NCBI GenBank assembly: GCA_003220005.1
Contig: QHRD01000010.1
Location: 1-42,768, forward strand
Direction: 5' to 3'
Length of the DNA: 42,768 bases
Source of the DNA: Verrucomicrobiota bacterium
Lineage (GTDB): Bacteria; Verrucomicrobiota; Verrucomicrobiia; Chthoniobacterales; UBA10450
The stretch's first letter is position 1, and every line of letters begins with the position of its first letter. Shown here one piece after another: positions 17,872 to 22,201 of the stretch. The translations under genes were made by a program, and so were the position numbers. The notes under the pieces were generated by a model, which saw only the letters and a list, made by a program, of their open reading frames with translations, searched no databases and had not been told where the DNA came from.

Positions 17872-18860
17872 ATGTCCATCTCAGACGAGCAAGTGACGGC
17901 TGCGTTGAAATCGGTGAAATATCCGGGCTTCACTCGCGACATCGTTTCATTCGGCTTGGTCAAATCGATCCAAGTCGACAATGGCGAGGTCAAGGTGCAG
18001 CTCGCGCTCGCGACAAATGATCCGAATATCCCCGCGGCAATCAAAAATGATGCGGAACGCGCACTGCGCGGGATCGAAGGAGTTCGCAGCGTGAAGGTCT
18101 TGATCGATATCCACGCACCGCCCGGAGGGTGGCAAGCGGCAAAGGCGGCGTGGGCAAATCGACGGTTGCGGCCAACCTTGCGGTGGCGTTGGAGCAAACC
18201 GGCGCGCGCGTCGGTCTGTGCGATTGCGACATCTATGGCCCGAGCATTTCGCAGATGTTCGGCACGCGCGAACGGCCAATGGCTACGGAAGAAAATAAGA
18301 TCGTTCCGATCGAGCAATACGGCTTGCGGCTCATGTCGATGGGATTCCTGCTTGACGATACTTCGCCGGCGATTTTGCGCGGGCCGATGGTAACACGCTA
18401 CACGCAACAATTTTTGCGGCAGGTCGAATGGGGTGAACTGGATTATCTGGTGCTCGATCTGCCGCCTGGTACCGGCGACATTCAACTCACCATTGTGCAG
18501 ACAGTCGCGCTTTCGGGGGCGATTGTGGTAACCACGCCCCAGGAAGTTGCGCTCATCGACGCTCGAAAGGCCGCCACAATGTTCGACAAGGTCAACGTGC
18601 CTGTGCTCGGTTTGATTGAGAACATGAGCTACTTCGTCTCTCCCTCCGACGGCAAACGCTACGATATCTTTGGAAGCGGCGGCGGTGAGCGCGAAGCGAA
18701 ACGGTTGCGGGTTCCGCTGCTTGGCCAGATCCCGATCGATATTGCCACGCGCGAGGCAGGCGATCGCGGAATTCCAATCGTGGGCGAAGATCGACGGTCG
18801 CCCGTGACGGCCGAGTTCAAAAAAATCGCAGAGCATCTGCGTAAGACATTGGCGCAGTGA
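17872..18860 (+). pseudogene. mrp: Mrp/ApbC Fe-S carrier ATPase, frameshifted
   Basis: P-loop ATPase that delivers Fe-S clusters. Frame 1 (from 17872) encodes an N-terminal DUF59/MIP18 domain up to DIHAPPGG. The other frame (from 18129) continues at VASGKGGVGKSTVAANLAVA with the deviant Walker A motif, DCDIYGPSI, LDLPPGTGD and the rest to a normal C-terminus. The joining linker that precedes the P-loop in relatives is missing: GGAGG is fused to GTGGCAAGCGGC with a frame change at about 18118-18131. A small deletion with frameshift is the simplest explanation; the downstream ATPase could start independently at the GTG at 18129, giving a shortened, possibly active Mrp core. Confidence 0.78.
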
Positions 18861-18956: not shown

Positions 18957-19205
18957 ATGAAAGAAGAGAAACCCCAGATGCCATCTTCGGAAGAAGATCA
19001 AGCTCAATTCGTCAAAGATTCGGCACTCTACAAGGAGTTCCTCGCCGAGCGCGCGGAGATTTTGAAGCATAAATGGATTGAAAGCGAAAAAGCCGGCAAA
19101 GACATCGGCTTTGAGAGAGCTCTGCTCGATTGGATCGTAAAACATCGCTCCAACTGGCGAGAGCGACGAAGAAAGGAGGCGCGCACCGAAAAGTCCGCCT
19201 CCTAA
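18957..19205 (+). CDS. small charged conserved protein, function unknown
   Basis: 82 aa, strongly charged and helical (YKEFLAERAEILKHKWIESEKAGKDIGFERALLDWIVKHRSNWRERRR). The block around HKWIESEKAG...GFERALLDWIVKHR is recognisable as a conserved type of short protein but I cannot name a domain. It ends directly before the PyrR-binding leader of the pyr operon and is therefore probably a separate transcript. Confidence 0.6.
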   Translation: MKEEKPQMPSSEEDQAQFVKDSALYKEFLAERAEILKHKWIESEKAGKDIGFERALLDWIVKHRSNWRERRRKEARTEKSAS

Positions 19206-19220
19206 TTTTTTTCTTTTAAC

Positions 19221-19238
19221 GCGATCCCGCGAGGTCGC
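19221..19238 (+). promoter_or_regulatory. PyrR-binding loop in the pyr operon leader
   Basis: The RNA GCGA-U-CC-CGCGA-GG-UCGC folds into the known PyrR-binding loop: lower stem GCGA/UCGC, a bulged U, an upper CC/GG pair and an NGNGA loop (here CGCGA). It fits the published consensus ARUCCNGNGAGGYU at all positions except the outer A-U pair, which is replaced by a compensating G-C pair. It ends one base before the SD AAGGA (19240-19244) of pyrR (ATG 19250), so bound PyrR could block ribosome access. The role is inferred from sequence and position. Confidence 0.75.
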
Positions 19239-19249
19239 TAAGGAAACAC

Positions 19250-19813
19250 ATGAAGCAAGAAAAAGAGAATTCATCTGCCGCCGTCCCCATCATGGACGCG
19301 GAGGCAATTCGCCGGGCGCTTCGGCGGATTGCGCACGAAATCATTGAGGGAAATCCGCCGCTCGAAAAGGTGGTGCTGGCGGGAATTCCTTCGCGCGGGG
19401 TGGACATCGCGCAGCGAGTCGCCGCCTTCATTCGCGAGATTGAACAGATCGACATTGAGAGTGGAGTCATCGACGTGGCGATGCATCGCGACGACGTGGG
19501 AACGCGCCCGGAACTGCCTGTCGTGCACGCCTCGAAACTTCCGGTGCCACTTGAGGAGCGTACCGTCATCATTGTCGATGATGTTTTTTACACCGGGCGC
19601 ACTGCTCGCGCGGCGATGGACGCTATCAATTCGTTCGGGCGCCCCGCCCGCATCCAATTGGCGGTGCTGATCGATCGTGGCCATCGCGAGCTCCCAATTC
19701 GCCCCGATTACGTCGGAAAAAATTTGCCCACTGCGACGCGAGAACAAATTCGGGTTCGCCTGCAAGAAACCGATAACGAGACCGACGCAGTATGGCTGGA
19801 AAGGAAATCATGA
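19250..19813 (+). CDS. pyrR: PyrR: pyr mRNA-binding attenuator / uracil phosphoribosyltransferase
   Basis: Bifunctional RNA-binding regulator and uracil phosphoribosyltransferase. The PRPP-binding motif [17 protein letters not shown] (about residues 104-120) and the [14 protein letters not shown] block (about 44-57) are typical; 187 aa is the normal length. First gene of the pyr operon, with its own binding loop right before the start; its ATG overlaps none, but its end overlaps pyrB in ATGA. Confidence 0.95.
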
Positions 19814-20739
19814 GCACCCGCTGGACGCGAAAAGATCTGCTCGGCCTGCGTGAGTTGTCAGTCGATGAAATCAATTTCGTTCTCGAAACTGCGGACGCGT
19901 TCAAGGAAGTGGGCACTCGCCAGATCAAAAAAGTTCCGGCGCTGCGCGGCAAAACGCTGATGAACTTTTTTGTCGAACCGAGCACGCGGACGCGTACCTC
20001 ATTTGAGCTCGCCGCATTTCGCTTAAGCGCGGACGTGATCAATATTTCCGCGCCCTCCTCCAGCCTCACTAAGGGTGAAACACTCAAGGACACCGCGCGC
20101 AATCTCGAGGCGTTGCATGCCGATATTCTCGTCCTGCGCCACGGCTCCGCTGGCGCACCACAGTTTCTCGCAAATCGACTGAAAGCGAGCGTGATCAACG
20201 CCGGCGACGGCGCACACGAGCACCCCACACAGGCGCTTCTGGATCTTTACACGATCCGCGAACGCAGAGGGAAAATCGCGGGGCTAAACGTTGCGATCAT
20301 CGGCGACATTTTGTTCAGCCGCGTGGCACGCTCGAATATCTTCGGTCTGCTAAAGCTCGGCGCGCGCGTGACACTGGTCGGGCCGAGCACCCTCGTGCCG
20401 CGCGAGTTTGAAAAACTGGGCGTCGAAGTTTCACACAAGATCGATGAAGTACTGCCGAGAGCCGATCTGGTAAATCTTTTGCGGATTCAGCACGAACGTC
20501 AGCGCAGGGAATATTTTCCTGGGCTAGGTGAATACATCCGCTTGTTTGGCCTGACCAAAGAACGCGCAAAACTTTTGAAGCCGGATTGTCTGATTATGCA
20601 TCCCGGCCCCATTAACCGCGGCGTCGAAATCGACAGCGACGTCGCTGACGGACCGCAAAGCGTCATTCTCGACCAAGTCACCAACGGTCTCGCTGTTCGC
20701 ATGGCCGTTCTCTATCTGTGCGGGGGAATTTCGGTATGA
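19810..20739 (+). CDS. pyrB: aspartate carbamoyltransferase catalytic chain
   Basis: Condenses carbamoyl phosphate and aspartate, the first committed pyrimidine step. The carbamoyl-phosphate loop [13 protein letters not shown] (about residues 53-65), the [12 protein letters not shown] block and the C-terminal [14 protein letters not shown] are present. I use ATG 19810, overlapping the pyrR stop as ATGA with AAAGGA upstream; the ORF-track start six codons earlier would overlap pyrR more. Length about 309 aa is normal. No regulatory PyrI chain nearby. Confidence 0.96.
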
Positions 20740-20783: not shown

Positions 20784-20816
20784 GCTGGTGATCGCATCTT
20801 GCGATCACCAGCTTTT
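20784..20816 (+). terminator. perfect 12-bp hairpin with T4, between pyrB and pyrC
   Basis: GCTGGTGATCGC-atctt-GCGATCACCAGC followed by TTTT. It has the shape of a weak intrinsic terminator or attenuator inside the pyr operon. Because similar hairpin units are dispersed over the window, it may be a repeat that happened to land here. Confidence 0.5.
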
Positions 20817-20914: not shown

Positions 20915-22201
20915 ATGAGCGCGACGATCATTCGCAACGGACGCGTGATCGATCCCGCAAACAAGCGAGATGAAATTGCTGACCTTTGCATCGCTGGCGG
21001 AAAAATCGTCGCCTCCAAATCCAAAATCCGAAATCAGAAATCCGAAAGCGAAGAGATCGACGCAAAAGGTCTGATCGTGGCGCCCGGTTTACTTGACATG
21101 CACGTGCACTTGCGGGAGCCGGGATTCAGTCATAAGGAAACGATCGAGTCAGGCGCGCACGCGGCTGCAGCCGGGGGATTTACCACGGTTGTTTGTATGC
21201 CGAACACTGCGCCAGTCGCGGATAATCCCAGTACCATCGCGTGGATCAGAGACCGAGCAGCGGCCGTCGCATGCGTAAACGTTTTGCCGACAGGCGCGAT
21301 TTCAAAAAATCTGGCCGGCGAAGAGCTCGCGCCGATCGGTTCACTCGCGCAGGCAGGCGTGATTGCGATCACGGACGACGGTCACTGCATTCAAAATCAC
21401 GAGCTGATGCGGCGCGCGGTCGAGTATGCGCGCATGGTCGATCTGCCCGTGCTCGATCATTGTCAGGATTACAATCTGGTCGGCAACGGCGTGGTGCACG
21501 AAGGCTATTGGAGCACACTGCTCGGTCTGCCGGGCTGGCCGGCAGCGGGCGAGGAAGTGATGGTGATGCGCAACATTTTACTCGCGGAACTTTGCAATCA
21601 TCACATTCATTGCCAGCACCTCACCACGGCGGGCAGTGTGCGCTTGTTGCGTGAAGCGCGGACGCGCGGGGTGAAGATCAGCGGCGAAGTTTGCCCGCAT
21701 CACATCGCGTTGACCGAGGAGGCGATCCAAAATTTCGACACGCACTACAAAATGAATCCGCCGCTGCGATCGCAGGAGGACGTTGATGCGCTGCTGGAAG
21801 GAATCGCCGACGGAACACTCTCGGTCCTATGCTCCGATCACGCGCCGCACGCCGATTTCGAAAAGGAAGTGGAATTCGATGCAGCGCCGTTTGGCATCAT
21901 CGGACTGGAGACCGAGCTCGGATTATTTATTGATCTGCTCGTGAACAAGCACGGCAAGATCGATATCGCCCGTTTGATCGAGATGTACACAGTCGAACCG
22001 GCGCGTTTGTTAAAGATTGATGCCGGTACGCTATCGGCCGGCGCGCGAGCTGACGTAACGCTGATCGATCCGGAACTGGAGTGGACAATCAGGATTGATC
22101 AGTTTCAATCTGCCTCGCGCAATTCACCATTCGACGGCTGGAAACTCAAAGGCCGCGCGGTGCGGACCATTGTCGGAGGAAAAACCGTTTGGAACTTGTA
22201 A
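20915..22201 (+). CDS. pyrC: dihydroorotase
   Basis: Zinc amidohydrolase that cyclises carbamoyl aspartate to dihydroorotate. Metal ligands lie in DMHVHLREPG (about residues 62-71), in the VLDHCQD and HHIHCQHL regions, and in the catalytic CSDHAPH (about 302-308). ATG 20915 (MSATIIRNG) fits the family start; the ORF-track start is five codons too early. Odd: SKSKIRNQKSESEE (about residues 33-46), in the small beta domain before the metal site, is encoded by AAATCC-type simple repeats and looks inserted, since the usual proteins go directly from a GKI strand to the following I-D-A-KG strand. Third gene of the pyr operon. Confidence 0.95.
   Translation: MSATIIRNGRVIDPANKRDEIADLCIAGGKIVASKSKIRNQKSESEEIDAKGLIVAPGLLDMHVHLREPGFSHKETIESGAHAAAAGGFTTVVCMPNTAPVADNPSTIAWIRDRAAAVACVNVLPTGAISKNLAGEELAPIGSLAQAGVIAITDDGHCIQNHELMRRAVEYARMVDLPVLDHCQDYNLVGNGVVHEGYWSTLLGLPGWPAAGEEVMVMRNILLAELCNHHIHCQHLTTAGSVRLLREARTRGVKISGEVCPHHIALTEEAIQNFDTHYKMNPPLRSQEDVDALLEGIADGTLSVLCSDHAPHADFEKEVEFDAAPFGIIGLETELGLFIDLLVNKHGKIDIARLIEMYTVEPARLLKIDAGTLSAGARADVTLIDPELEWTIRIDQFQSASRNSPFDGWKLKGRAVRTIVGGKTVWNL
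21014..21047. repeat. in-frame AAATCC/AAATCAG simple repeat in pyrC
   Basis: TCCAAATCCAAAATCCGAAATCAGAAATCCGAAA, units of roughly 7-8 nt. Very similar to AATCGCAAATCTAAAATCAGAAATCC before tRNA-Leu. Confidence 0.6.

Follow-up and report, generated by a model that had tools for sequence, protein, structure and literature searches.

Translational repression by PyrR was reportedly shown for the pyr operon of Mycobacterium smegmatis by Fields and Switzer in 2007 and is said to have been proposed for other bacteria. As in the locus described here, the PyrR loop of M. smegmatis lies over the first ribosome-binding site, with neither an antiterminator nor a terminator, and Actinomycetota loci of our comparison such as L097, L101 and L107 have the same layout of a loop on the ribosome-binding site. 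The present locus differs from M. smegmatis in that it belongs to another phylum, carries a GCGA/UCGC stem and is known from sequence comparison alone. For Thermus ZO5, the pyr leader is said by Van de Casteele et al. (1997) to act by ribosome-coupled attenuation with a leader ORF. As in our locus, the PyrR site of Thermus adjoins the start of the operon's first translated ORF, whereas there a leader ORF and a terminator come next and here pyrR itself follows; two loci from the same class as the window (L152 and L154) look Thermus-type. In the attenuation of the Bacillus subtilis pyr operon, three PyrR loops act via an anti-antiterminator route (PMC7430163). The binding element is the same as in our locus, including the CCUUUAA...AAGG lower helix and the CNGNGA loop of the RF00515 consensus, but the Firmicutes loops are anti-antiterminators about 120–250 nt before the aligned PyrR start, whereas here a single loop lies on the Shine-Dalgarno (SD) sequence and no attenuator is present. 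This type of switch is already known, and what is new is most likely its presence in the Verrucomicrobiota (Chthoniobacterales), a lineage outside the classical groups as the initial annotation had supposed; a coarse literature search found no PyrR loop switch described for a member of this phylum.

The window, i.e., the whole stretch of 42,768 nt analyzed here, carries on its forward strand an upper hairpin, GCGAUCCCGCGAGGUCGC (= GCGATCCCGCGAGGTCGC), at positions 19221–19238, in which the stem GCGAUC/GGUCGC contains a U-G pair and encloses the hexaloop CCGCGA (CNGNGA). Its coordinates and sequence had been given exactly, and so had its position one base before AAGGA, the SD of pyrR: a check of the sequence places only T19239 between the hairpin end at C19238 and AAGGA. 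The upper hairpin forms the central part of a canonical element that extends further on both sides, UCYUUUAA-N-stem-UCCNGNGAGG-stem-N-AAGGA, which is complete at 19212–19244 (+ strand) and corresponds to positions 1–33 of R1, the 34-nt covariance model built for this element. The 5' arm UCUUU of the lower helix (19212–19216, + strand; family consensus UCCUU) pairs with AAGGA (19240–19244, + strand), forming one G-U pair in the window, and by this pairing the SD of pyrR, 5 nt before the ATG at 19250, is built into the helix. Between the two helices, the internal loop UAAC with its conserved UAA (19217–19220, + strand) faces U19239; among 70 family loci A8 is invariant and U6 and A7 are kept in 69. 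The window thereby has the features of known PyrR loops, namely the UCCNGNGAGG core, a CNGNGA hexaloop closed by U-G and C-G pairs, a purine-pyrimidine pair (A-U) below the core in the upper stem (ARUCC...GGYU), and the UAA internal loop with the CCUU/AAGG lower helix, the window's arm being UCUUU.

In a comparison with Rfam, RF00515 (PyrR) was the best family match with 29.8 bits over 19209–19274, aligned across both helices and the loop. At the gathering score of 54, neither the window nor the rest of its own genome yields a match to RF00515. This low score is due to more than half of the 115 model positions covering the downstream attenuator, and in a test on 20 loci, among them Firmicutes, nearly every PyrR loop likewise fell below the cut-off. 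The cut-off reflects the attenuator part of the model and does not define the loop. Used at this cut-off, the model misses translational PyrR sites as well as many attenuators, so that the PyrR regulon is under-annotated. R1 scores the window element with 50.1 bits (E 5.6e-8) as the sole match in the 2.53-Mb genome (about 82% complete), finding no further PyrR targets there. As a positive control, R1 recovered three loops per operon in the Bacillus-type loci L084 (matches at 2840, 3533 and 4973), L085, L106 and L073.

R1 was built with the structure of the initial annotation, in which the U is bulged and the loop is a pentaloop. This register was rejected. In 97 distinct elements, selected without using the pairs 14–23 or 15–22, pair 14–23 is standard throughout (U-G in 76, C-G in 11, U-A in 10), whereas pair 15–23, which the bulged U would require, is non-standard in 12. 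Since pair 14–23 is standard in every element, the U pairs with G and CNGNGA forms a hexaloop, in agreement with the Rfam structure. Pair counts that were redone with the hexaloop structure were equal or better.

Among the 83 genomes of the family, 73 have a pyrR match, and in each of the 70 loci whose upstream DNA was readable the hairpin was found at the same place before pyrR. The CUU/AAGG arms and the GNGAG loop core are kept in all of these loci, with AAGG invariant, and the full UCCNGNGAGG, the conservation of which in close relatives had been proposed as a check, is kept in nearly all. Positions 18 and 20–22 of the loop are invariant and the N positions 17 and 19 differ among the loci, in keeping with the PyrR consensus; the upstream CCUU arm is invariant but for a C-to-U change at position 3, which the window shares with one other sequence. 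Variation among the family elements is thus mostly found at unpaired N positions. In one species (L013/L033), the loop core upstream of pyrR is changed from UCC to CAC with the rest of the element intact, a change that is expected from the sequence to weaken PyrR binding. The stem pairs, for which covariation had been suggested as a further check, do covary: in 36 cross-phylum sequences the covariation score was 0.416 compared to 0.196 in shuffles, 96% of cells were paired and 52 cells were double-changed, i.e., compensatory, compared to 17 in shuffles. Sliding the structure by one base removes most of the signal. The outer A-U pair of the consensus is G-C in the window, and this position covaries across the elements, as is expected for the compensating replacement that had been noted. 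Moreover, the CCUUUAA...AAGG frame is also present in Firmicutes, Actinomycetota, Rokubacteria, Omnitrophota, Armatimonadota and others, as well as in the Rfam PyrR consensus.

The UCCNGNGAGG core by itself proves nothing, as it is expected 1.27 times per window; the ten-base core TCCNGNGAGG, seen three times compared to 1.27 expected, is unremarkable alone, and it is the conservation that carries the proof. A chance likeness to the short core would be compatible with these frequencies, but the element holds one conserved position in 68 of the family's 83 genomes, a set with many incomplete assemblies, and in 80 of the 147 order genomes, with one R1 site per genome adjoining pyrR with few exceptions; together with the E-value for the whole genome this leaves chance a practically negligible probability. 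The conserved element, its covariation, RF00515 as the top family and a downstream gene encoding PyrR uphold the proposal that the hairpin is the PyrR-binding loop of pyrR, and the sequence comparison identifies it as a real PyrR-binding element.

The nearest named relatives are soil Verrucomicrobia MAGs, followed by Chthoniobacterales and Chthoniobacter. Across the phylum, R1 matched 9 of 387 genomes, all from the order or from two other families of its class, f17 and f18, and a PyrR-like protein above the NCBIfam cut-off is encoded in 190 of these genomes. Sixty phylum loci that were read directly agree with the distribution given by R1, and the element is also present in a verrucomicrobial record from another collection (L061). 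The basic residues R15, R19, H22, R141, R146 and K152 (numbering of B. subtilis PyrR, checked on 1a3c, with position 15 counted as R/K), which we take to form the RNA face of PyrR in the role reportedly assigned to them by Savacool and Switzer in 2002, are conserved in the family. All six are present in 132 of 140 element-bearing PyrRs and five in a further seven, and one protein is truncated. On the other side, all 53 sampled verrucomicrobial PyrR-like proteins from loci without the element (L159–L211) have at most four of the six, their PRPP loop being largely intact; the six positions were narrowed down after inspection of the alignment, and there is phylogenetic clustering in these counts. 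A tree places all element-less proteins but L159 outside the RNA-binding group (support 89), and the 53 proteins stand for a few events and not for 53 independent ones. All six residues without an R1 match near pyrR were found in 16 loci (Clostridia, Chloroflexota and others, including the Verrucomicrobiota L037 and L051), and for this reason a protein that lacks the residues is a better sign of a missing loop than a missing loop is of lost residues. In five loci of the verrucomicrobial family f8 (L163–L165, L171 and L183), the loop-less PyrR-like genes, judged by eye, apparently lie behind a PurD-like C-terminus, and this arrangement suggests a role outside the pyr operon.

A hairpin that sequesters the SD without PyrR, acting as an RNA thermometer or a simple tuner of translation, or a DNA palindrome for a transcription factor would be in line with the predicted folds, in which the SD is paired in most relatives (mean 0.89). 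However, neither a thermometer nor a DNA site needs the invariant loop, the UAA internal loop, the G-U pairs and the identity with the PyrR loops of many phyla, and the element goes together with PyrR of the RNA-binding type, making such explanations very improbable.

The gene behind the element, pyrR (19250–19813, + strand; 187 aa), matches NF003549 with 226.7 bits at a cut-off of 138, and its best PDB matches are PyrR structures. It is followed by pyrB, encoding aspartate carbamoyltransferase (19810–20739, + strand), whose start overlaps the pyrR stop as ATGA at 19810–19813; an ATGA or GTGA overlap of the two genes is found in 77 of 81 loci. The dihydroorotase gene pyrC (20915–22201, + strand) is the likely operon end. 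In most relatives pyrC lies within about 0–15 nt of the preceding gene, compared to a pyrB-pyrC gap of 179 nt in the window, which resembles an insertion or repeat element. This gap contains a perfect 13-bp hairpin followed by TTTT at 20784–20812, in view of which pyrC may be on a separate message. Upstream of the element, a small ORF at 18957–19205 encodes an 82-aa protein that is conserved before pyrR in many relatives and has only a borderline, sub-threshold match to DUF4032. Further upstream, an Mrp/ApbC gene (17872–18860) is seemingly split by a frameshift, with FeS_assembly_P and P-loop NTPase domains in different overlapping frames, which appears to be an assembly error or decay.

The start codon lies 1–6 nt past AAGGA in 73 of 75 family rows, so that the SD and the 3' arm of this helix are one and the same. 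In the window and in the family, no terminator-like site and no leader ORF were found between the loop and the start codon of pyrR, the loop ending on the SD of pyrR itself. The locus thus lacks the antiterminator and terminator that stand between the loop and the first gene in Bacillus-type attenuators and has the mycobacterial-type arrangement of a loop on or abutting the first ribosome-binding site without an attenuator. The remark that no leader terminator was visible holds for the stretch between loop and ATG, but not upstream of the loop, where a strong terminator-like hairpin (19174–19212; z −3.2 for 19165–19220) ends in seven T at the end of the small ORF and is likely the terminator of that ORF. 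The hairpin at 19174–19203 with its U-run was considered as a PyrR attenuator and rejected, as it precedes the loop and as unrelated sequence stands at this place in several relatives that keep the loop. Transcription attenuation, either of the Bacillus anti-antiterminator type or ribosome-coupled with a leader ORF, is how the same loop works in Firmicutes, and in the related families f17 and f18 the AAGG of the loop serves a short leader ORF running into a terminator. For the window it is quite improbable, given a loop on the SD of pyrR and a sole neighboring terminator-like hairpin that PyrR could not use as an attenuator from its upstream position.

With no terminator between loop and start codon and with the ATGA overlap of pyrR and pyrB, the mechanism that fits best is repression of pyrRB(C) at the level of translation, and the layout on the SD and the comparison of relatives support the initial annotation, which had favored it. 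Very probably, a genuine PyrR-binding loop is present by which PyrR would autogenously repress the translation of pyrRB(C). From the sequence data we infer binding, its control by nucleotides and both the sign and the magnitude of the effect, as follows. When UMP and UTP are plentiful, nucleotide-bound PyrR would sit on the hairpin and keep the UCUUU/AAGGA helix closed. PyrR and the lower helix would then cover the SD of pyrR and prevent ribosomes from initiating on pyrR, pyrB would be silenced alongside by translational coupling through the ATGA overlap, and pyrC in turn through either coupling or polarity. At low pyrimidine levels, PyrR would leave, the helix would open and the operon would be translated. 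Less in line with this model, the fold energy of the short leader is ordinary (z −0.35), and the lower helix is weak in the window, the predicted pairing of the SD with the 5' arm being 0.15 compared to a family mean of 0.76, so that repression may there rest almost wholly on PyrR.

In L152 (f18) and L154 (f17), the AAGG arm is instead placed as the SD for a short leader ORF, which reaches or enters an intrinsic terminator some 53–69 nt downstream, and ten further loci from several phyla (L045, L057, L058, L067, L082, L089, L093, L096, L100 and L104) have the same layout, resembling the ribosome-coupled attenuator of Thermus. It appears plausible, with the balance about level, that a single class connects one invariant element to two different outputs, the SD of pyrR in Chthoniobacterales and a leader ORF with a terminator in f17 and f18, with the loop absent and the RNA-face residues degraded elsewhere in the phylum.

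As a summary, PyrR control, described so far mainly in Firmicutes and Actinomycetota, very probably also operates in a major group of soil bacteria with few cultured members, and the analysis shows the SD to be part of the canonical lower helix. The match between loop and residues provides a simple sequence rule to tell RNA-binding PyrR from PyrR-like phosphoribosyltransferases, although retention of the residues is no guarantee of a detected loop, as seen in the 16 loci. If the two-way wiring holds true, the phylum would offer a natural series in which one protein-RNA contact changes its expression platform and is then lost.
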